Below, piece by piece: positions 22,052 through 36,058 of a DNA stretch of 64,000 bases. The position numbers were made by a program, and so were the translations under genes. The notes under the pieces were generated by a model. It was not told the origin of the DNA and did no database searches. It worked only from the letters and a program-made list of their open reading frames with translations. Where the stretch lies: contig NZ_RXOM01000003.1 in NCBI RefSeq assembly GCF_008692195.1, positions 1 through 64,000 on the forward strand, given 5' to 3'. Source of the DNA: Salegentibacter sp. R32 (GTDB lineage: Bacteria > Bacteroidota > Bacteroidia > Flavobacteriales > Flavobacteriaceae). Position 1 is the first letter of the stretch, and every line of letters starts with the position of its first letter.

Positions 22052-24220
22052 TTAATTCTTGATCACTTTAAATGTTTGAGTTGTATTTTGTGAGTTAATG
22101 TTCACAAAGTAAGCTCCGTTACTTAAAGTTTCAATATTGATAGTTGTATTAAGATCGTTAATACTTTTTCTTTCTATCACCTTTCTACCGGCAATATCAT
22201 AAATAGTTACGTTATTAATTTCTTGATCACTGCTAATAGTAAAATTAGATTGAGCAGGATTAGGATAAATTTTAATATCCTTTTTATCAAAATTGTTTGC
22301 TGTTAAATTTGCAGAAACACAAGAAATTTCGGCATCCCATCCAGCTTCATGACTATACATATCTGAAGTGAATTTTACTGTAATTGCTCCATCAGGGTTG
22401 GTAGCTTTAAAAGTTGGTAAACTGCCAGATAAATCTCCTGTTAGATTATTTCCACCGGAAAATAAAGGAGCATCGATAGAAGTACCATCATAAACACTCA
22501 TGAAGTCATAATCTTCTTCTAAATGGAAAGCCAAAAATTCTAATTCTATCACTTCTCCGGTCGAATCAGGATAGAAAGTTTTAATAAGTGTTTGTTCATC
22601 ACCGTAATCTCTATTTGGTCCTCCTGTGTCTGTAAAATTACCTCCTTGGCAATAATCCCAATCTGAAAGAAATAGAGAACTATAATAGCCTCCAATATCA
22701 TTAATATTCGTACATGAATTGGCTACAGTTACTTCATAATAAGTATTTGGAGTTAAATTTTGAAAATCTATAAATGGACTAAATGAATAATTCCAAGAGC
22801 CTCCTTGGAGACCAAATTCATAAAATAAATAATACCATTCAGTTGAATAGTTATCTACTATCTCCATTTCTATAGAATTAGATCCGTCACTTAGGAAGGT
22901 GATGTCTTGTATAGACATAAAGCAAGAATTAATACAATCAGTACCTAAGCAATTCTTACTATCAATTGTATTTCTTATTAGTTGGGAAGGTTGAGGTCCA
23001 AAACCTAAAGATAAATTAACTCCAACACTATTTAAATGACAATAACTCATGATAGTTCCTCCATTTTGTGGTATAGGTCCAGTTGAACAATTAGTAAACC
23101 GTTCATTAACTCCAGCTAAAGTACCACATCCATCAATAGGTGTATTATCGCCGTTCCAGAGACATTGATGAGTATGAGGTGAGCTAAACGAATGTCCCAT
23201 CTCATGGGTAGAAGCCCCAATTGTCCAAGAGTAGGTAGGTACTTGGTTGTAATATTGTTCTACAGCAGAATAGGCATAGTTATTGTTTTCGCATAAGGTA
23301 TTAAGATAAGCAACACTAGTGGTTGTAGGTTGATTGATTAAGTGAGCTAAATCTCCATTAAAATAATTTCTAGTATTACTAAATAACATTAAGTTATTTG
23401 AAAAATCATAGACATAAGGATCTGGCTCTGTCCAAACCATTACCTCACTTAAAGCAATATTAATACCATCATTAGCATATAGGGTAGATATGTTATTATG
23501 TATAGCTGTCACCCAATTAACCGTCTGGGAAACATCTGAATTATTCTGAAGATAAGGTTCGTAAGCTACTTCGTAATAGATTCTAACACAATTGGTTGTT
23601 GTTAAATTAGATTTTGTTGACGATACTCCCTGTTCGATGGTTTGCTGCATATTTTCAGTCATTTCCTCGTAACGACACTCAAAAGGATTTGTTTCCATTA
23701 AGTCTTGTTCGGCGTAGATAATATAGTCATCATTATCCTTAATTTTCCCTATGTTTATATTTCCTAATTCTATTGAGGAAGCTACTCCATATAAACTATT
23801 ATTATAAAAACTGAAGGACGCTACAGATCTTGAGGAGTTTGCAATGACTCCTCTATAATGTACACCAGATTTAATAGGTAGTTTTTCTTCATCCTGAGTG
23901 AATGCACTGAAACTATCTTCCAAGGGGTTTTTTCTATATAATTCAATGTTAACCATCTCACCTTTAAATGGAAATGAAAATTTAATTAAAAGGGGTTGAG
24001 TTTGATAAATTTCTTTTAGTGTACCTTTATTAACTTCAAAAATTGAAGCATTCTTTACATCAGATTTTAACCTTTCAGTGCTACGATCGGTATCTTGCAA
24101 TATATCATAAGAAGGAAAAGTATAACCATTTTGATGATAGGTCTCAATATCTTTTTTTATCTGTTGTTGTGATAAAGCAGAAATGCTTATTAAAAAAAAT
24201 AGTAGTGTAAAATTTTTCAT
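22052..24220 (-). CDS. Secreted reprolysin-like zinc metallopeptidase, T9SS cargo
   Basis: A 722-residue exported protease. Signal peptide about 1-17 (ISALSQ); a propeptide-like region (about 20-205); a metzincin catalytic domain (about 205-430) with the zinc site HEMGHSFSSPH and a downstream MSYCH Met-turn; an FN3-like linker; a CUB-like domain (about 525-640, including DEQTLIKTFYP and FHLEEDYDFMSVYDG); and a C-terminal type A sorting domain (about 650-722, IKIYPNPAQSNFTI to TFKVIKN). It is probably released or surface-attached by type IX secretion and digests extracellular protein. It is monocistronic, with its own terminator. Confidence 0.88.
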   Translation of the reverse strand: MKNFTLLFFLISISALSQQQIKKDIETYHQNGYTFPSYDILQDTDRSTERLKSDVKNASIFEVNKGTLKEIYQTQPLLIKFSFPFKGEMVNIELYRKNPLEDSFSAFTQDEEKLPIKSGVHYRGVIANSSRSVASFSFYNNSLYGVASSIELGNINIGKIKDNDDYIIYAEQDLMETNPFECRYEEMTENMQQTIEQGVSSTKSNLTTTNCVRIYYEVAYEPYLQNNSDVSQTVNWVTAIHNNISTLYANDGINIALSEVMVWTEPDPYVYDFSNNLMLFSNTRNYFNGDLAHLINQPTTTSVAYLNTLCENNNYAYSAVEQYYNQVPTYSWTIGASTHEMGHSFSSPHTHQCLWNGDNTPIDGCGTLAGVNERFTNCSTGPIPQNGGTIMSYCHLNSVGVNLSLGFGPQPSQLIRNTIDSKNCLGTDCINSCFMSIQDITFLSDGSNSIEMEIVDNYSTEWYYLFYEFGLQGGSWNYSFSPFIDFQNLTPNTYYEVTVANSCTNINDIGGYYSSLFLSDWDYCQGGNFTDTGGPNRDYGDEQTLIKTFYPDSTGEVIELEFLAFHLEEDYDFMSVYDGTSIDAPLFSGGNNLTGDLSGSLPTFKATNPDGAITVKFTSDMYSHEAGWDAEISCVSANLTANNFDKKDIKIYPNPAQSNFTISSDQEINNVTIYDIAGRKVIERKSINDLNTTINIETLSNGAYFVNINSQNTTQTFKVIKN

Positions 24221-24352: not shown

Positions 24353-24799
24353 ATGTTTCGAATACTATATATTTTATTGATCTTCGTTTTTTATTCATGT
24401 AAAAATGAAAAATCATCCAATTCAACTACTCGAAAGAAAACTCAAAAAGAAATTGTAGAAAAAACTCCGCTTCAAAAAAGTATAACTAGAGGTAAATCTG
24501 TCTATACTAAAAATTGTGCACAGTGCCATTTGCCCACAGGAAAGGGAATTCCGAAAATTTATCCACCACTTCGAAAATCAGATTGGTTAACTAAAAAGAG
24601 AACCGAAAGCATTCACGCAGTAAAATATGGGTTAAGCGGAGAGATAACAGTTAATGGCCAAGCTTACGAAAACATAATGACACCAATGGGATTATCAGAC
24701 CAAGAAGTAGCCGATGTGTTGAATTACGCGATGAATATGTGGGGAAACAAACAAGAAAAAATGGTATCTTCGGAAGAAGTTGCACAAGTAGAAAAGTAA
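24353..24799 (+). CDS. Cytochrome c lipoprotein
   Basis: A 148-residue exported monohaem cytochrome. A lipoprotein signal ends in FYSC (lipid on C16). The haem site is CAQCH (C55, C58, H59), and the distal ligand is probably Met109 or Met112 in IMTPMG. It transfers electrons in the periplasm, anchored in a membrane. Its stop lies 12 nt before the Crp/Fnr regulator, so the two are likely co-transcribed; together with the downstream persulfide and sulfite genes this suggests a role in oxidising sulfur compounds, such as passing electrons from sulfide or sulfite. That role is inference. Confidence 0.82.
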   Translation: MFRILYILLIFVFYSCKNEKSSNSTTRKKTQKEIVEKTPLQKSITRGKSVYTKNCAQCHLPTGKGIPKIYPPLRKSDWLTKKRTESIHAVKYGLSGEITVNGQAYENIMTPMGLSDQEVADVLNYAMNMWGNKQEKMVSSEEVAQVEK

Positions 24800-24811: not shown

Positions 24812-25447
24812 ATGAATTTAGTAGAACTTCAACAAAATTACGGTGGTCAATTTCAACCCGAATTAATAGAAGAGATTGATAAAGTCGCTATTTTTAAAGA
24901 AGTAAAGACGGGTGAAGAGCTTATAAAAGTAGGCGATTACATCAGGTCGATGCCGCTAATTTTAACTGGAGCTATTAAAATTTTAAGAGAAGATGAAAAT
25001 GGCGACGAGCTCTTACTGTACTTTTTAGAAAAAGGCGATACTTGCGCCATGACTTTAGCTTGCTGTATAGGCAACAAAAAAAGTGAAATTAAGGCTGTCG
25101 CAGAAACCGATGCTACATTATTAATGATTCCTGTACAAAAAATGGAAGAGTGGTCTTCCAAATACAAAAGTTGGCGAAATTTTGTGTTCGATAGTTATCA
25201 TCATCGATTAATGGAAGTGCTTCAATCTATCGATAGTATTGCATTTTCTAAGCTAGATGATAGATTACTGAAATACCTTCAACATAAAAAGAAATTTTTT
25301 AAAAGTAATTTAATTGAAATTACCCATCAAGAAATTGCCCAAGATCTAAACTCTTCTCGGGTGGTTATTTCACGATTGCTCAAAAAGTTAGAAAACCAAA
25401 ATGCGATAGAATTACATCGAAACTCCATTAAATTAATAGCTGTGTAA
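24812..25447 (+). CDS. Crp/Fnr-family transcription regulator, putative reactive-sulfur sensor
   Basis: A 211-residue regulator with an N-terminal cyclic-nucleotide-binding-type beta-roll (about 20-120), a dimerisation helix (about 125-150) and a C-terminal winged helix-turn-helix (EITHQEIAQDLNSSRVVISR, about 168-187). The usual cAMP-contact residues are not evident. Instead the roll carries GDTCAMTLACCIG with C78, C84 and C85, a cysteine patch seen in many Bacteroidota members. It is followed by sulfur genes, and three palindromes GTAAC-N4-GTTAC precede neighbouring transcription units. Sensing of persulfide or redox state through these cysteines is inferred. Confidence 0.85.
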   Translation: MNLVELQQNYGGQFQPELIEEIDKVAIFKEVKTGEELIKVGDYIRSMPLILTGAIKILREDENGDELLLYFLEKGDTCAMTLACCIGNKKSEIKAVAETDATLLMIPVQKMEEWSSKYKSWRNFVFDSYHHRLMEVLQSIDSIAFSKLDDRLLKYLQHKKKFFKSNLIEITHQEIAQDLNSSRVVISRLLKKLENQNAIELHRNSIKLIAV

Positions 25448-25487
25448 CATTTATTACGCTGACTAACTTTTCTTTTCTATAGTTTTG
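25444..25487 (+). promoter_or_regulatory. Crp/Fnr-type operator and promoter of the TauE unit
   Basis: GTAACATTTATTAC (25444-25457) matches the palindrome GTAAC-N4-GTTAC at 9 of 10 fixed positions and overlaps the regulator's stop codon. TAGTTTTG (25480-25487) follows after exactly 22 nt and fits TAnnTTTG. No -33 TTG is present. The same spacing is seen at 26967 and 29891. Confidence 0.6.
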
Positions 25488-25511
25488 TTGGCAGAATTGA
25501 AAAAATAGCAA

Positions 25512-26318
25512 ATGTTAATTAGCGTTTTAGGTTTTATAGTAGCATTAATTATCGGGATTGTTTTAGGGCTTACCGGCGGCGGTGGTTCCATTTTAACTGT
25601 TCCGGTATTTGTATATTTATTAGGGATCGATCCGGTGTTGGCTACCGGTTATTCATTATTTGTAGTCGGTATTTCCTCGATGTTCGGCGCCATTAAAAAC
25701 CTGCAGAAAGGTTTAGTTAGTTTTGGAACTTCGCTCATTTTTGCCATTCCGGCGGTAGTTGCGGTATTTTCAACTAGAAAATTCATTATTCCCGCCATTC
25801 CTGAAGTCATTTTTCAAAATCAATCCATATTATTTACCAAAGATGTTGCCATTATGGTGTTTTTCGCCATACTAATGTTAGCCGCTTCTTTTTCGATGAT
25901 TTTAGATAAAAAGAAGAAAGTTATAGAAACCGGAACAGACAAACCCAAAACAACAAATTATTTCAGCTTGATTTTATTGGGCGTTTTTACCGGAATCGTC
26001 ACTGGTTTAGTTGGCGCCGGTGGTGGTTTTATTATTGTCCCAATTTTAATATTTCTGGCAAAACTTCCTATTAAAAAAGCGGCAGCAACTTCTTTATTCA
26101 TCATTGCACTTAATTCGTTGATTGGTTTTTTAGGCGATGCTTTGCAAATCGAGATCGATTGGACTTTTCTACTTTCTTTTTCAGCATTTGCTATCGTCGG
26201 AATTTTTATAGGGATTTACCTAAATAAATTTATCGATGGTGCTAAACTTAAAAAAGCTTTCGGTTGGTTGGTGTTAGTGATGGGAATCTATATTTTTTAT
26301 AAAGAAATGATGATGTAA
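25512..26318 (+). CDS. TauE/SafE-family sulfite/organosulfur exporter
   Basis: A 268-residue polytopic membrane protein with about eight helices in two homologous halves. Each half opens with a Gly-rich signature: GIVLGLTGGGGSILTVPV (residues 16-33) and GIVTGLVGAGGGFIIVPI (about 160-177). Members export sulfite, sulfoacetate or thiosulfate-like anions. It starts 64 nt after the Crp/Fnr regulator, with its own GTAAC-type operator and -7 element between, and is followed 1 nt later by a methyltransferase gene. Sulfite produced by the persulfide dioxygenase encoded downstream is the likely substrate. Confidence 0.88.
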   Translation: MLISVLGFIVALIIGIVLGLTGGGGSILTVPVFVYLLGIDPVLATGYSLFVVGISSMFGAIKNLQKGLVSFGTSLIFAIPAVVAVFSTRKFIIPAIPEVIFQNQSILFTKDVAIMVFFAILMLAASFSMILDKKKKVIETGTDKPKTTNYFSLILLGVFTGIVTGLVGAGGGFIIVPILIFLAKLPIKKAAATSLFIIALNSLIGFLGDALQIEIDWTFLLSFSAFAIVGIFIGIYLNKFIDGAKLKKAFGWLVLVMGIYIFYKEMMM

Positions 26319-26319
26319 G

Positions 26320-26934
26320 ATGAAAGAATTTTGGAACGAAAAATTTAATACCAAAGAATATATCTACGGAAAATCTCCGAATGTCTATTTAGCTGAAAAG
26401 TTGAAAGAATTACCTTCCGGTAAAATTTTATTCGTTGCCGAAGGCGAGGGGAGAAACGCTGTTTTTGCGGCTAAAAATAATTGGCAAGTTGAAGCTTTCG
26501 ATATTAGCAATATAGCAAAAGAAAAAGCACTTCAATATGCTGAACAGTCAAAAGTGGAAATTAATTATTCCACACAAGATTTTCTTGAAATTCCTTATAA
26601 GGAAAATTCTTTCGATGCGATAGCCTTAATTTATGCTCACGTTGAAAAATCTAAAAGAGCGTCTTATTTCAAAAAGATCGATCGACTTTTAAAAACTGAC
26701 GGATATTTAATTGCTGAAGGTTTTGGTCAAAATCATCCTAATTATCAAAAAAAATATCCCAAAATTGGCGGACCTAAAAACGCGGAGCTTTTATTTTCTG
26801 TGGAAGAATTTAAAGAGTGTTTCAACAATTATAATTTCATAGAACTTCAAGAAGTAGAAACCAGCCTAAATGAAGGTGAAAAGCACGTAGGCAAAGGTTC
26901 TGTAGTAAGAATGTTCGCAAAAAAGAAGCTTTGA
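26320..26934 (+). CDS. Class I SAM-dependent methyltransferase
   Basis: A 204-residue cytoplasmic methyltransferase. The start FWNEKFNTKEYIYGKSPN is typical of TehB/thiopurine-methyltransferase-like proteins. Motif I is FVAEGEGRNAVFAA (about 38-51), the acidic loop of strand beta2 is VEAFDIS, and DAIALIYAHVEKS is the motif around strand beta4. TehB-like enzymes methylate oxyanions or thiols for detoxification. It starts 1 nt after the TauE-type exporter stop, so it is in the putative sulfur regulon; methylation of sulfide or a thiol is a reasonable but untested guess. Confidence 0.78.
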   Translation: MKEFWNEKFNTKEYIYGKSPNVYLAEKLKELPSGKILFVAEGEGRNAVFAAKNNWQVEAFDISNIAKEKALQYAEQSKVEINYSTQDFLEIPYKENSFDAIALIYAHVEKSKRASYFKKIDRLLKTDGYLIAEGFGQNHPNYQKKYPKIGGPKNAELLFSVEEFKECFNNYNFIELQEVETSLNEGEKHVGKGSVVRMFAKKKL

Positions 26935-26966
26935 TTTTTAAGTTGAAATCACAAGAAATTTTCAAT

Positions 26967-27010
26967 GTAACCCGGGTTACTTATAAAAGTGAAGATAATG
27001 TGTATTTTTG
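26967..27010 (+). promoter_or_regulatory. Perfect operator palindrome and promoter before the desaturase-type gene
   Basis: GTAACCCGGGTTAC (26967-26980) is a perfect 14-bp palindrome. TATTTTTG (27003-27010) follows after exactly 22 nt and fits the TAnnTTTG -7 consensus. The palindrome centre would be about 42 nt upstream of the transcription start, the class II Crp/Fnr position. No -33 TTG is present. Confidence 0.7.
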
Positions 27011-27028
27011 TTACCGATTGATAGCAAA

Positions 27029-27922
27029 ATGTTAGAGAAATATTTAAAAATAATAAGCGATTCGTTTACCGGTTATTTCAACTATTTAGTAAGTGAAATA
27101 ACCAATCCGTCGTGGACAAACTATTTCTACTGGCTAATAGGTTTATCGTTATTGGTTTGGGCGTTAGAGATATTTATTCCGTGGCGAAAAAATCAGCCTA
27201 TTTTTAGAAAAGGCTTTTGGTTAGATAGTTTTTATATTCTGTTTAATTTTTTCCTATTTTCTTTAGTAGGTTATAATGCGATCTCAAATGTTGGGGTAGA
27301 ATTATTTAACGATTTTCTATCGCTCTTCGGTATCGAAAATATTGTAGCGATCGAAGTGCAGAATTTTCCCGTTTGGGCGCAATTGCTAATTATGTTCGTG
27401 GTGGCAGATTTTATTCAATGGAATGTTCACCGGCAATTACACAAACAACCTTGGCTGTGGAAGTTTCATAAAGTACATCACAGCGTAAAACAAATGGGTT
27501 TTGCCGCACAGTTTCGCTTTCATTTTATGGAAACTATTGTGTATAAAACTGTACAATATATTCCGTTGGCGATGATCGGTTTTGGTATCGAGCAATTTTT
27601 TGTCGTGCATATGTTCTCAGTTTTTATCGGGCACTTAAATCACGCCAATTTGGGGTGGAGTTACGGTTGGTTAGGTTATATTCTCAACAATCCGAAAATG
27701 CACATTTGGCATCATTCAAAAGAATTGCCAAAAGACCGACCTTACGGAATGAATTACGGATTAAGTTTAAGTATTTGGGATTATTTGTTCGGAACGGCTT
27801 ATATTCCCGAAAACGGAAAAAATATAGAATTAGGCTTTGAAGGAGACGAAAATTTCCCGAAAAGCTTTCAAGAACAGTTGATGTATCCGTTTCAGCATCA
27901 ACAAAAAACAACACAGAAGTAA
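27029..27922 (+). CDS. Sterol desaturase/fatty acid hydroxylase-family membrane protein
   Basis: A 297-residue integral membrane di-iron enzyme candidate. Helices lie at about 35-50, 65-95 and 120-140. The histidine cluster is complete: HRQLH, then FHKVHHS, and later HIWHH. Family members hydroxylate or desaturate lipids with oxygen. I chose the ATG at 27029. An in-frame TTG at 27008 falls inside the -7 element (27003-27010), so it would precede the transcription start. The gene is under the perfect GTAAC palindrome and is followed 18 nt later by the persulfide dioxygenase, so lipid modification seems to be part of the same response. Confidence 0.85.
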   Translation: MLEKYLKIISDSFTGYFNYLVSEITNPSWTNYFYWLIGLSLLVWALEIFIPWRKNQPIFRKGFWLDSFYILFNFFLFSLVGYNAISNVGVELFNDFLSLFGIENIVAIEVQNFPVWAQLLIMFVVADFIQWNVHRQLHKQPWLWKFHKVHHSVKQMGFAAQFRFHFMETIVYKTVQYIPLAMIGFGIEQFFVVHMFSVFIGHLNHANLGWSYGWLGYILNNPKMHIWHHSKELPKDRPYGMNYGLSLSIWDYLFGTAYIPENGKNIELGFEGDENFPKSFQEQLMYPFQHQQKTTQK

Positions 27923-27940
27923 AATATAAAATCTTTAGAG

Positions 27941-29275
27941 ATGAATATAAAACAATTTAACGATAAAGCTTTAGCGCATTACAGCTATGCGATCGTTTCC
28001 GAAGGAAAAATGGCAGTGGTAGATCCTGCAAGAAACCCGATGCCGTATTATCAATTTGCTGAAGAAAACAATGCTAAAATTGTAGCAGTTTTTGAGACGC
28101 ATCCGCACGCAGATTTTATTAGTAGTCATTACCAAATTCATAAAGAAACCGGTGCAACGATTTATGTTAGTGAATTGTTAGGTGCCGATTATCCTCACCA
28201 AACTTTTGATGACGGCGATAGTTTTATGTTAGGAAGTATAAAATTTTCTGCCATTAATTCTCCTGGGCATTCCCCAGATAGTATTACAGTTTTAGCTGAA
28301 GAAGGTAACGATAAAGCAATGTTTACCGGTGATACTTTGTTCATTGGGAATGTTGGTCGCCCAGATTTACGTGAAAAAGCAGGAAATATGCAAGCCAAGC
28401 GCGAAGAGTTGGCCAAGCAAATGTACCATACCATCAAAGATAAATTCACGCATTTACCCGATGAAACCTTGGTTTATCCAGCACACGGAGCTGGATCGCT
28501 TTGCGGGAAAAATATGAGTGATGCTTCATCTTCAACCCTAGGGAATGAGCGAATGGGCAATTGGGCGTTTAAAGAACAAACCGAAGAAGAGTTTGTAGAA
28601 GAGATCTTAAAAGATCAACCTATGATTCCGCATTACTTTGGTTTCGATGTAGATACCAATAAAAAAGGACCGGATAATTATTTAAAAAGTATCGGAGAAG
28701 TCCCTGTTTTACTGAATGTAAATGAAGTGGAATCAGGCGCGGTAATTGTCGATATTAGAGCTGAAGAAGATTTTAAAGCGAATCATTTAAAGGGAAGTTT
28801 TAATATTCAAGGGATTCGTGAACCGCAAAAATTAGAAACCTGGTTAGGTGCAATCGTACAACCGGAAGAAGCTTTTTATTTAGTAGTTCCTTCTGTAGAA
28901 ATGATAGAGACTGCTTTAGCGAGAATGGCTAAAATCGGTTATGAAAAGCAATTAAAAGCAGTAATTACTCTAGCCGGAGATTTAAGTTCTTCTGAAAAAG
29001 TAGATGTGGAAGAATTTAAAAATAATCAGGAAAACTACACCATCGTAGATATTAGAAACGAACCTGAGGTTGAAGAAAATAAACCTTTTAAAAGTTCTAT
29101 CAACATTCCGTTACACGAATTGAGAGAGAGAGCAAACGAAGTTCCTACCGATAAACCAATCGTAGTGCATTGTGCTGCCGGTTACAGAAGTGCTGCCGGA
29201 AGCAGCATTTTAGATCGTGAGATAGATAAGGTGAGCGTTCTCGATCTTAGCGATGCAATTAAAGATTTTATGTAA
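27941..29275 (+). CDS. CstB-like persulfide dioxygenase-rhodanese fusion
   Basis: A 444-residue protein of the same length and layout as Staphylococcus CstB. The N-terminal metallo-beta-lactamase-type persulfide dioxygenase domain (about 1-240) has iron ligands H54 (THPH), H110 (SPGHS) and D131 (FTGDTLF). A first rhodanese-like domain (about 255-350) lacks a catalytic cysteine. The second (about 360-444) has VVHCAAGYRS with C411 as sulfur carrier. It would oxidise low-molecular-weight persulfides to sulfite or thiosulfate. It lies in the operon driven from the 26967 operator and ends at a bidirectional terminator. Confidence 0.9.
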   Translation: MNIKQFNDKALAHYSYAIVSEGKMAVVDPARNPMPYYQFAEENNAKIVAVFETHPHADFISSHYQIHKETGATIYVSELLGADYPHQTFDDGDSFMLGSIKFSAINSPGHSPDSITVLAEEGNDKAMFTGDTLFIGNVGRPDLREKAGNMQAKREELAKQMYHTIKDKFTHLPDETLVYPAHGAGSLCGKNMSDASSSTLGNERMGNWAFKEQTEEEFVEEILKDQPMIPHYFGFDVDTNKKGPDNYLKSIGEVPVLLNVNEVESGAVIVDIRAEEDFKANHLKGSFNIQGIREPQKLETWLGAIVQPEEAFYLVVPSVEMIETALARMAKIGYEKQLKAVITLAGDLSSSEKVDVEEFKNNQENYTIVDIRNEPEVEENKPFKSSINIPLHELRERANEVPTDKPIVVHCAAGYRSAAGSSILDREIDKVSVLDLSDAIKDFM

Positions 29276-29308
29276 TAGAAAATTCAAATTTACCCTTTGT
29301 ATAAAAAG

Positions 29309-29342
29309 AAAAAGCCAAGCAATTTATTTTGCTTGGCTTTTT
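29309..29342. terminator. Bidirectional terminator between convergent genes
   Basis: AAAAAGCCAAGCAA and TTGCTTGGCTTTTT form a perfect 14-bp stem with a 6-nt loop and T runs on both strands. It serves the persulfide dioxygenase gene (+) and the PepSY-like gene (-). Confidence 0.92.
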
Positions 29343-29363
29343 CGATATAAAGCAGGTTAAGTA

Positions 29364-29780
29364 TTATATATTTTTATTTTTCAAAAAGTTTCCGTCGAGA
29401 TCAAAAACAAGTTCAGCACCGCTTTTCATTTCAATTTGATGACCGTCATCATCCATTTTCCAATCGGTAACATAATCCTCACCATATCTATTTTCTAAAA
29501 AGTATTTCATCTTAGTAGGGATTAGCGCGTAAGGTACTTTTTCATCACCAGAAATTTGAGTCGCTTCTCCATTTTCATTAAAATCGATTTTGGTTCCGTT
29601 TTTAAATTTTACCTGATAGCTATCTTCATCGGCATTTACCTTATCAATTTCGTTATCGGCGTAATTCACTTTTACAATTTCTAAAGCTTTTGCAGGTAAT
29701 TTATCTAAATTTTCTTGGGCTTGACCAACAAAAGCAGCGGTTAGGGTTATAATCCCTAAAATTATCCATTTTCTCATCAT
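29364..29780 (-). CDS. Exported PepSY-like protein
   Basis: A 138-residue exported protein. A signal peptide (about 1-20, AAFVGQAQ) is followed by two repeats of a PepSY-like (PF11396-type) fold: DNEIDKVNADEDSYQVKFKN with GTKIDFNENGE, and EDYVTDWKMDDDGHQIEMKS with GAELVFDLDGN. The alternation of a charged helix and paired strands is typical of these small periplasmic proteins of Bacteroidota, whose function is poorly known. It is divergent from the YeeE pair and convergent with the persulfide dioxygenase, so it interrupts the sulfur block on the opposite strand. Confidence 0.75.
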   Translation of the reverse strand: MMRKWIILGIITLTAAFVGQAQENLDKLPAKALEIVKVNYADNEIDKVNADEDSYQVKFKNGTKIDFNENGEATQISGDEKVPYALIPTKMKYFLENRYGEDYVTDWKMDDDGHQIEMKSGAELVFDLDGNFLKNKNI

Positions 29781-29890
29781 TAATAATTTTTATTGGTTTC
29801 TATGGCTAAATTAATAGATGAATAAACTTTTGACTATTAACGAATTGTGAATTTGAATAAGCTTAACAACTTTTACTAAAAAAGTATTAA

Positions 29891-29934
29891 GTAACTTGAG
29901 TTACAGATTTGTTCATACTTATCAAGCATATTTG
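29891..29934 (+). promoter_or_regulatory. Crp/Fnr-type operator and promoter of the YeeE pair
   Basis: GTAACTTGAGTTAC (29891-29904) matches GTAAC-N4-GTTAC at all fixed positions. CATATTTG (29927-29934) follows after exactly 22 nt and differs from TAnnTTTG only at the first base. The architecture is identical to that at 25444 and 26967. Confidence 0.65.
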
Positions 29935-29951
29935 TATAAAATTTTATGACT

Positions 29952-30503
29952 ATGAATTGGATTTTAGAACCTTGGCCGTGGTATATCGGCGGACCCGCAA
30001 TTGCGATTTTTATGTTATCGCTCTTAATTATCGGGAAACAATTTGGAATGTCTTCTAACCTAAGATCGCTATGTTCGATCGGTGGTGGAGGCAAAGTGGC
30101 CGACTTTTTCAATTTCGATTGGAAGGCTCAACGTTGGAATTTAACGATTATGATCGGTGCAGCAATTGGTGGTTTTATTGCCGCTAATTACCTTTCAGAT
30201 AATACAGTGCAAATTAACGAAAGTTTACTTCCGAAGTTACAAGAATATGGAATTAACAGCGCAGGAGAAGCTTATTTACCCACAGAGATTTTTGCTTCAG
30301 AAAATCTAAACCTCAAAAATCTACTCATTTTATTAGGTGGTGGTTTATTAGTTGGTTTCGGTGCAAGATACGCCGGTGGTTGTACTTCTGGTCACGGTAT
30401 TTCTGGATTGAGCAATTTACAATTACCATCGTTAATTGCGATTGTCGGTTTCTTTATCGGTGGCTTAGTAATGGTACATTTATTTTACCCGTTAATTTTT
30501 TAA
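29952..30503 (+). CDS. YeeE/YedE-family sulfur transporter, first half
   Basis: A 183-residue membrane protein with about five helices. It carries the DUF395 signature GFGARYAGGCTSGHGISG and an upstream LCSIGGGG cysteine, the residues that relay thiosulfate in TsuA/YeeE. Together with the next gene it makes a split two-chain version of the fused transporter. I prefer the ATG at 29952 (MNWILEPWPWYIGGP); an in-frame ATG at 29946 would leave almost no leader after the predicted transcription start near 29940. It is under the GTAAC palindrome at 29891-29904. Confidence 0.87.
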   Translation: MNWILEPWPWYIGGPAIAIFMLSLLIIGKQFGMSSNLRSLCSIGGGGKVADFFNFDWKAQRWNLTIMIGAAIGGFIAANYLSDNTVQINESLLPKLQEYGINSAGEAYLPTEIFASENLNLKNLLILLGGGLLVGFGARYAGGCTSGHGISGLSNLQLPSLIAIVGFFIGGLVMVHLFYPLIF

Positions 30504-30528: not shown

Positions 30529-30554
30529 GTCACACTGAGCTTGTCGAAGTGTGA
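30529..30554. repeat. Intergenic repeat, CTGAGCTTGTCGAAG family, copy 1
   Basis: The core CACACTGAGCTTGTCGAAGT is flanked so that TCACACT and AGTGTGA form a 7-bp stem. Related copies lie at 32779-32802 and 36036-36058. This short palindromic sequence is widespread between genes in Bacteroidota genomes. Confidence 0.7.
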
Positions 30555-30582: not shown

Positions 30583-30996
30583 ATGAAAACAATACTTTAT
30601 TTATTTCTCGGAACGATTTTCGGGATCATTATGTACAAATCTGAAGCTGCTTCGTGGTTCAGAATATATGAGATGTTCAACTTTGCCAGTTTCCATATGT
30701 ATGGCATTATGGGTTCTGCCGTTGCTATTGGTATGATCGGTGTTCAATTTCTAAAAAAGAAAAACTATAAAGCCATCGATGGAACAGATCTTTCTTTAAC
30801 TCCAAAAGAAAAAGGAATTTCAAGATACCTTTTCGGCGGAATTATTTTTGGTTTAGGTTGGGGCTTAGCAGGCGCTTGTCCGGGACCAATGTACACGTTA
30901 GCCGGAGTCGGCTATATTTCAATTTTAATTGTTATTGCCGGAGCTATTTTAGGAACTTTTCTATACGGTTTACTTCGGAAGAAATTACCGCATTAG
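30583..30996 (+). CDS. YeeE/YedE-family sulfur transporter, second half
   Basis: A 137-residue membrane protein with about four helices and the partner DUF395 signature GLGWGLAGACPGPMYTLAG, whose cysteine is the second relay residue in TsuA-type thiosulfate channels. It probably pairs with the protein encoded 79 nt upstream. I use the ATG at 30583 (MKTILYLFLGTIFG). An in-frame TTG at 30541 would start translation inside the intergenic palindromic repeat at 30529-30554 and add a polar stretch before the first helix. The presence of both halves and the CstB-like gene fits uptake or export of thiosulfate or persulfide. Confidence 0.85.
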   Translation: MKTILYLFLGTIFGIIMYKSEAASWFRIYEMFNFASFHMYGIMGSAVAIGMIGVQFLKKKNYKAIDGTDLSLTPKEKGISRYLFGGIIFGLGWGLAGACPGPMYTLAGVGYISILIVIAGAILGTFLYGLLRKKLPH

Positions 30997-32778: not shown

Positions 32779-32802
32779 GTCACACTAAGCTTGTCGAAGT
32801 GT
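32779..32802. repeat. Intergenic repeat, CTGAGCTTGTCGAAG family, copy 2
   Basis: The core reads CACACTAAGCTTGTCGAAGT, one base different from copies 1 and 3. It sits between the biotin carrier and biotin carboxylase genes, inside an operon. Confidence 0.7.
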
Positions 32803-35954: not shown

Positions 35955-36058
35955 GTCAGGCTGAACTTGATTAACTAACGTTGAATCTTTGATTTCAGCA
36001 TCTCATTCAGATACTTTTTTAGCTGAAATTAAAATGTCACACTGAGCTTGTCGAAGTA
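35955..36058. repeat. Two stacked intergenic repeats after the carboxylase operon
   Basis: 36036-36058 is copy 3 of the CTGAGCTTGTCGAAG family. At 35955-35970 CAGGCTGAACTTGATT, and about 20 nt further on TTTCAGCATCTCATTCAG, look like the two halves of a related palindromic repeat (CTGAACTTG...TTCAGCATCTC) separated by an insertion. Confidence 0.5.

Follow-up and report, generated by a model that had tools for sequence, protein, structure and literature searches.

A gene for a Crp/Fnr-family regulator opens a block of sulfur genes in the 64,000 nucleotides of Salegentibacter sp. R32 analyzed here (contig NZ_RXOM01000003.1, positions 1 to 64,000, forward strand; hereafter the window), and three copies of the palindrome GTAAC-N4-GTTAC stand in this block, each 22 nt upstream of a TAnnTTTG-like -7 element. 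We consider it probable that the regulator is an activator working in class II position at this palindrome, that its targets form a sulfane-sulfur regulon, and that persulfides or polysulfides are the trigger.

According to this model, a regulator dimer would bind the palindrome, its center ~42 nt upstream of the start of transcription, and would activate promoters that have a poor -33 element and, 22 nt beyond the palindrome, a -7 element that fits the Bacteroidota form TAnnTTTG well. The target products would handle sulfane sulfur and what is made from it, by uptake, oxidation, transfer and export: the two YeeE halves would import sulfur, and proteins joining metallo-beta-lactamase and rhodanese domains (MBL-rhodanese) would act as enzymes of the persulfide dioxygenase/sulfurtransferase type, with rhodanese, SQR-like, TauE/SafE and SulP proteins and a membrane hydroxylase as further predicted targets. 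The trigger would most likely be a per- or polysulfide modifying Cys78 of the regulator, together with Cys84 and Cys85 where these are present. A preliminary description of the window had proposed a sulfur regulon under Crp/Fnr control with class II geometry, and the conserved spacing, the target genes and the co-occurrence with the regulator gene now support this proposal, binding itself being predicted from sequence.

Operator anatomy, conservation and target genes

The three palindromes can be read directly in the sequence, at the positions and with the mismatch counts given in the preliminary description, and the spacing of exactly 22 nt holds at all three (Table 1). The product of the gene said to head the block scores above the cut-offs of Pfam PF00027, PF13545 and PF00325, as a Crp/Fnr-family protein should. 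With up to one mismatch, the window holds 6 palindromes, compared with a mean of 1.26 and a maximum of 4 in 100 shuffles. The other three (at 22109, 35566 and 37521) lack a -7 element at the 22-nt distance on the + strand and are absent from the both-strand list of composite sites, and those at 22109 and 35566 fall within listed reading frames. Over the entire genome, the exact 14-mer is found at 7 places as against 5 for a reversed control; there being no clear excess, we rejected the palindrome alone as a genome-wide marker. Five of its exact places are outside the window, three of them (L001, L004, L155) inside open frames and the others on C33 and C55.

The composite site, in which 22 nt separate palindrome and TAnnTTTG, is far more restricted: with up to one mismatch it occurs at 4 places in 4.08 Mb, three of which are the window operators. 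It is thus rare elsewhere in the genome; frequent occurrence at unrelated promoters would, according to the preliminary description, have counted against the regulon. When up to three mismatches are allowed, the composite shows no excess in the whole genome (33+33 places, 42+33 in the reversed control). The fourth place, C19:102423, consists of GTAACAAAAGTAAC and, after 22 nt, TAACTTTG, before a gene that we label thioredoxin-like. We did not count it as a fourth target: among 16 genus genomes searched, 15 have the gene, and a site with up to one mismatch lies within 300 nt of it in 2 of these 15, C19's own genome included.

The closest relatives of the window belong to Mesonia species, with 91-94% identity in the regulator. 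In the orthologous loci (the best 80 of 536 candidates), the exact palindrome GTAACN4GTTAC is present in 211 copies distributed over 77 loci, the exceptions being L044, L046 and L105, while five control palindromes of the same letters gave 7, 3, 1, 0 and 0 copies. Orthologous loci keep the palindromes, and with them the spacing and the kinds of gene that follow. A -7 element with up to one mismatch lies exactly 22 nt from 193 of the 211 palindromes (an exact one from 87), and each other distance between 10 and 40 nt accounts for 1-9 cases. The same spacing emerges from a scan blind to the motif, in which 2344 TAnnTTTG places yielded perfect 5+5 palindromes in 96 cases at a distance of 22 nt (GTAAC in 87), compared with 5-10 at each of 20, 21, 23 and 24 nt. 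The distance between palindrome and -7 element is therefore fixed, and a start ~42 nt downstream of the operator center, as at class II promoters, would be predicted from this geometry.

The 87 sites whose -7 element is exact give an asymmetric logo, with a T before the palindrome in 91% and a TG after it in 71% and 68%, an asymmetry that may reflect contacts of RNA polymerase. By the usual spacing, a -33 element would sit near this TG. The preliminary description had noted that no -33 TTG is present; the three window sites lack the TG, which in relatives follows about 70% of the palindromes.

Within the genus, three sites with the 22-nt spacing are present in each of the loci L035-L039, two in L040 and one in L041; L040 and L041 may end short of all the units. 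The TauE-side operator has 1-2 mismatches in 7/7 of these loci (L035-L041), with place and spacing kept, and the hydroxylase-side operator has two mismatches in L035 and L038. A locus with the title uncultured Tenacibaculum has seven copies of GTAACATTTGTTAC, 144-215 nt apart, on the upstream side of its regulator gene (L083:8536-9701), possibly a repeat array.

We then counted target genes as relatives identified by tblastn with an operator of up to one mismatch within 250 nt upstream, leaving out matches whose start lies past the first 30% of the query or that come too close to the end of a locus. An operator precedes 54/60 MBL-rhodanese genes of the common CstB2 type, 44/56 TauE genes, 42/48 genes for YeeE half 1 and 17/24 hydroxylase genes. 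MBL-rhodanese, TauE and YeeE genes are the commonest targets. Smaller classes are SulP (9/17), small rhodanese (10/29), a protein which we take to be DUF983-like, Pfam having given no family (8/8), SoxC-like (2/2; Pfam Oxidored_molyb) and SQR-like (2/2; Pfam Pyr_redox_2). The exemplars for rhodanese, SulP, DUF983, SQR, SoxC and CstB2 were drawn from operator-bearing genes, which favors those classes and biases the small ones upwards. The regulator gene itself has the operator in 10/88 cases, and in a few loci the operator is followed by a gene for cytochrome bd or for a cytochrome c. By comparison, 57 control palindromes give an expectation of 0.14-0.47 for MBL-rhodanese, TauE, YeeE half 1 and hydroxylase, and below 0.75 in every class. 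No operator with up to one mismatch was found upstream of YeeE half 2, the second gene of its unit (0/46), of the methyltransferase (0/5) or of an alcohol-dehydrogenase-like gene (0/2). Most reading frames on the antisense side of palindromes look spurious (e.g., 26 short ones in one cluster), and we did not take these as targets. The preliminary account called the regulon compact, which fits Mesonia; outside this genus it is wider, and some loci add SulP, SQR-like, rhodanese and other genes as well as the regulator gene.

Table 1. Operators, -7 elements and genes of the regulator block (positions in the window)
Feature	Position	Strand	Description
Operator 1	25444-25457	+	GTAACATTTATTAC; 1 mismatch; overlaps stop codon of regulator gene; before TauE/SafE-methyltransferase unit
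-7 element 1	25480-25487	+	TAGTTTTG; 22 nt downstream of operator 1
Operator 2	26967-26980	+	GTAACCCGGGTTAC; perfect palindrome
-7 element 2	27003-27010	+	TATTTTTG; 22 nt downstream of operator 2
Operator 3	29891-29904	+	GTAACTTGAGTTAC; 5+5 arms perfect
-7 element 3	29927-29934	+	CATATTTG; 1 mismatch to TAnnTTTG; 22 nt downstream of operator 3
Small c-type cytochrome gene	24353-24799	+	Pfam Cytochrom_C 8.5e-14; 12 nt before regulator gene
Crp/Fnr-family regulator, 211 aa	24812-25447	+	Pfam cNMP_binding 7e-12, HTH_Crp_2 7.8e-9
TauE/SafE-type sulfite/organosulfur exporter (predicted)	25512-26318	+	Pfam TauE 1.3e-43
S-adenosylmethionine-dependent methyltransferase	26320-26934	+	Pfam Methyltransf_25/11; TehB and TPMT models below cut-off
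Fatty acid hydroxylase superfamily membrane protein	27029-27922	+	Pfam FA_hydroxylase 5.9e-30; OlsE-like, OlsE model below cut-off
CstB-like protein, 444 aa	27941-29275	+	Pfam Lactamase_B and Rhodanese (2 stretches)
YeeE/YedE-type sulfur transporter half 1	29946-30503	+	Pfam Sulf_transp 1.7e-17
YeeE/YedE-type sulfur transporter half 2	30583-30996	+	Pfam DUF6691/Sulf_transp

Some features of the block need comment. The start of the hydroxylase gene was set at an internal ATG because the TTG listed as its start overlaps with the -7 element, and the window protein with MBL and rhodanese domains is one that we take, from general knowledge, to be CstB-like. The cytochrome gene and the regulator gene possibly share one transcript; in the 80 loci, relatives of the cytochrome have an operator upstream in 0/8 cases. 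A gene for a PepSY-like protein (29364-29780) diverges from the YeeE unit, and in 5 Mesonia loci it shares with this unit the intergenic region that holds operator 3; PepSY genes have an operator upstream in 5/5 cases by way of this shared YeeE operator region, in which we saw no -7 element facing the PepSY-like gene. A short repeat, CTGAGCTTGTCGAAGTG (up to one mismatch), occurs at 30535-30551, 32785-32801 and 36042-36058, with one copy between the YeeE halves; these three window copies compare with a mean of 0.00 in 100 shuffles.

Regulator and operator across genomes

Co-occurrence of the motif with the Crp/Fnr gene across Flavobacteriaceae, which the preliminary description had suggested as a check, was found. 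The regulator (E ≤ 1e-20) is present in 126 and not found in 23 of 149 genomes of this family, and the composite, with a spacing of 21-23 nt, occurs in 98/126 regulator-positive but only 2/23 regulator-less genomes (Fisher 3e-10; per-genome counts were transcribed by hand, and 3 of the 23 regulator-less genomes were assigned by elimination). Over all 149 genomes there are 222 composite hits, and 4 for the reversed control. Regulator-less genomes are informative in another respect: 18 of the 23 contain, between them, 19 MBL-rhodanese genes, 33-39% identical to that of the window, and none has a site with up to one mismatch within 500 nt upstream, while a palindrome of this quality lies elsewhere in 4 of the 19 loci.

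Five proteins with a cNMP domain are encoded in the genome, and only the regulator at the head of the block has the recognition helix SRVVISR (S182-R183-V184-V185-I-S187-R188), whose R-V and later R fall at the same positions in an alignment with NtcA. It is likely, judging from these comparisons of sequence, that the adjacent Crp/Fnr protein binds the operators.

Homologs of the regulator (E ≤ 1e-30), found in 107 of 296 sampled genomes, are widespread in Bacteroidota. We analyzed a distant set of 80 homolog loci, chosen for lower identity or absent motif and hence not random, in which position 184 holds Val in 55 loci and Glu in the other 25 (36 V/CC, 10 E/CC, 19 V/other and 15 E/other). On a FastTree phylogeny, parsimony gives about seven changes of residue 184, a count that carries no significance test. 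The Val184 loci contain 16 GTAAC sites in 15 loci, and the Glu184 loci contain no symmetric GTAACN4GTTAC and 15 GTGAYN4RTCAC, for which near -7 elements at 15-29 nt lie mostly 22-23 nt away. Relaxed sites in the distant loci again precede YeeE, MBL-rhodanese, TauE, rhodanese and SQR-like genes. The pairing of subfamily and operator class thus appears to hold well beyond the family, with a third base that residue 184 does not seem to set strictly. We regard it as somewhat more probable than the contrary that a Bacteroidota-wide Crp/Fnr subfamily has turned the cyclic-nucleotide pocket into a sulfane-sulfur thiol sensor centered on Cys78 and serves as the main persulfide/thiosulfate activator of the phylum, its operator drifting between GTAAC, GTGAY and mixed forms at a nearly fixed spacing of 22 nt.

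Sensor domain, signal and competing explanations

The preliminary description was silent on the invariant cysteines of the sensor domain. Cys78, Cys84 and Cys85 sit in the cNMP-binding cassette and align to the stretch that holds cAMP in CRP. All three are invariant in 80/80 near orthologs, and in the distant set Cys78 is again present in 80/80 (160/160 overall), Cys84 in 55/80 (135/160) and Cys85 in 51/80 (131/160). In CRP, cAMP is contacted by Glu72 and Arg82; the corresponding positions here are Met80 (80/80 near orthologs) and Lys90 (72/80), and a cAMP-binding CRP was rejected on this ground. An AlphaFold2 model, built from an alignment of the window protein with 49 of the 80 orthologs, matches CRP-family chains by fold (mean pLDDT 85.7, pTM 0.62); its loop 81-90, with a mean pLDDT of 58, is the least certain part apart from the last residue. 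Conserved cysteines thus occur together with sulfane-sulfur target genes, as expected of a regulator responsive to reactive sulfur. From this combination we infer a thiol switch for per- and polysulfides, which would make the protein a persulfide-responsive class II activator.

Several observations weigh against this interpretation. The CstB-like gene of the window is a different paralog from the usual targets, which are 28-36% identical to the window protein; it is second in its unit, and genes of its type have a site of their own in 1/11 cases. Cys84 is missing in 25/80 and Cys85 in 29/80 distant homologs, and some of these neighborhoods still contain such sites, so that a three-cysteine mechanism cannot be general. 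Conservation, moreover, does not identify the signal, and the same domain could respond to heme, NO, O2 or some other ligand. With respect to co-occurrence, the regulator-less genomes are often small, a partial confounder (2/11 of those of at least 2 Mb have the motif), and the exact composite is missing in 28/126 regulator-positive genomes; of these, 22 were examined at the regulator locus, where 16 have a relaxed site with a near -7 element and 6 do not. The link between residue 184 and the operator is also incomplete. Val184 loci hold 13 GTGAY sites in addition to their GTAAC sites, and both classes have mixed sites in which one half is GTAAC (Glu184 examples are L209, L210, L215 and L220), so that a strict rule of Val184 for GTAAC and Glu184 for GTGAY was not upheld. 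In Glu184 loci, an exact TAnnTTTG with a perfect palindrome 20-24 nt upstream was found at 0/105 and 0/186 places, and the shorter GTGAN6TCAC, with 14 copies, is no commoner than one AT-rich control (12). Because the evidence from residue 184 is looser than it had first appeared, we slightly lowered our confidence in the explanation proposed here.

The strongest competitor, which we consider unlikely but worth weighing, retains the regulator and the regulon and replaces the signal by NO, heme status, O2 or redox, as in HcpR and FNR, the sulfur genes then belonging to a respiratory or redox programme. The HcpR2 regulators share the predicted consensus GTAACnnnnGTTAC (PMC1274295), and the HcpR of Porphyromonas, which responds to NO via heme (PMC12750200), is among the fold neighbors of our model, at rank 48; in addition, the regulator gene is preceded by a cytochrome c gene, and the operator is followed by cytochrome genes in a few loci as noted above. 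Against such a signal stand the predominance of MBL-rhodanese, TauE and YeeE genes among the targets, the lack of a Prismane (hcp) match in the genome, and the cysteines themselves, since three, two of them not universal, are ill-suited to a four-cysteine cluster of the FNR type.

Less probable still is that the palindromes are repressor sites, or sites of dual action, rather than class II activation sites. The persulfide regulators CstR and SqrR are indeed repressors (PMC9774590); however, the palindromes end 22 nt before the -7 element in the large majority of cases, and hence lie upstream of this element and not over it, in the layout of the canonical NtcA-activated promoter centered at -41.5 (PMC3898017), and the -33 region has a partial TG only.

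That another Crp/Fnr paralog binds the operators, the neighboring gene being a bystander, seems very improbable. The genome does encode four further cNMP-domain proteins, and a neighbor need not be the regulator, but the paralogs have the recognition helices TRETLSR, QPESLSR, TQQSLSR and ATESLIR and not R-V-x-x-x-R, and the composite sites track the regulator gene over the 149 genomes and precede this gene itself in some loci. Finally, a chance cluster of three palindromes, in favor of which one could cite the near-equal genomic counts of the 14-mer and its reversed control, is practically eliminated by the spacing, the identity of the genes and the conservation in the orthologous loci.

Significance and comparison with known systems

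Sulfidic sediments, marine particles and guts are common habitats of Bacteroidota. With regulator, operator and targets defined for this phylum, its sulfide and thiosulfate responses would become predictable from sequence, a cysteine-bearing Crp/Fnr subfamily would gain a function, and the membrane hydroxylase and the DUF983-like protein would become candidate sulfur-stress genes. The drift of the operator at a nearly fixed spacing also offers a ready case for specificity change in the Crp family.

The operator itself has precedents, although the preliminary description knew of none. Its consensus, GTAACnnnnGTTAC, was published for HcpR2, a predicted regulator of hcp (Rodionov et al. 2005, PMC1274295), which is likewise of the Crp/Fnr family and occurs in Bacteroides among others. 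HcpR2 differs in having Pro at the position of CRP residue 181, where the window regulator has Val184, and in co-occurring with hcp, which it is predicted to control; the Prismane profile (PF03063) has no match in the window genome, while 5/14 control genomes match. The Porphyromonas HcpR is a heme/NO protein, unlike the thiol sensor proposed here, and none of the 56 PDB sequence matches at E ≤ 10 is named HcpR. The operator thus agrees with membership in HcpR/HcpR2; the proline and, in this one genome, the co-occurrence with hcp do not. The motif also falls within the GTAN8TAC of NtcA, whose sites are centered at -41.5 with a TAN3T box, those of hetC and nirA lying 22 nt before the -10 box (PMC3898017), and the recognition residues R-V-x-x-x-R align. 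NtcA differs in its signal (2-oxoglutarate), its nitrogen regulon and its -10 element, and the window protein reaches 48.3 bits with TIGR03697 against a cut-off of 244.95, a partial similarity only. Given the lack of an hcp match and a score so far below the NtcA cut-off, we filed the regulator under neither HcpR nor NtcA. An Fe-S regulator of the FNR type was rejected as well, as the window protein has three cysteines and four are needed.

With respect to the signal, the closest parallels are FisR of Cupriavidus, CstR and SqrR/BigR, in which thiols sense reactive sulfur and which control sulfide and persulfide genes; FisR is furthermore an activator with three conserved cysteines. These regulators, as the excerpted review presents them, belong to other protein families, namely sigma-54 activators, CsoR and ArsR, and none to Crp/Fnr (PMC9774590). 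The best PDB sequence match (2.2e-14) is 3dv8, a Crp/Fnr protein of Eubacterium rectale annotated as a putative transcriptional regulator, which has cysteines aligned with Cys78 and Cys84 and differs in an R-E recognition pair; the thiol cassette may therefore reach beyond Bacteroidota. Crp/Fnr proteins of Flavobacteriales and others have been loosely assigned to MalR, with carbon sensing (PMC8510549). RedB, which was set aside, has a non-palindromic motif (PMC9603854). A limited search of open-licence literature returned, among the matches listed, no description of a Crp/Fnr sulfane-sulfur sensor or of the present regulon, which is weak evidence of novelty. The motif, then, was already in print; as far as we found, the novelty lies in the regulon and how widely it extends, and in the sensor with its cysteines.

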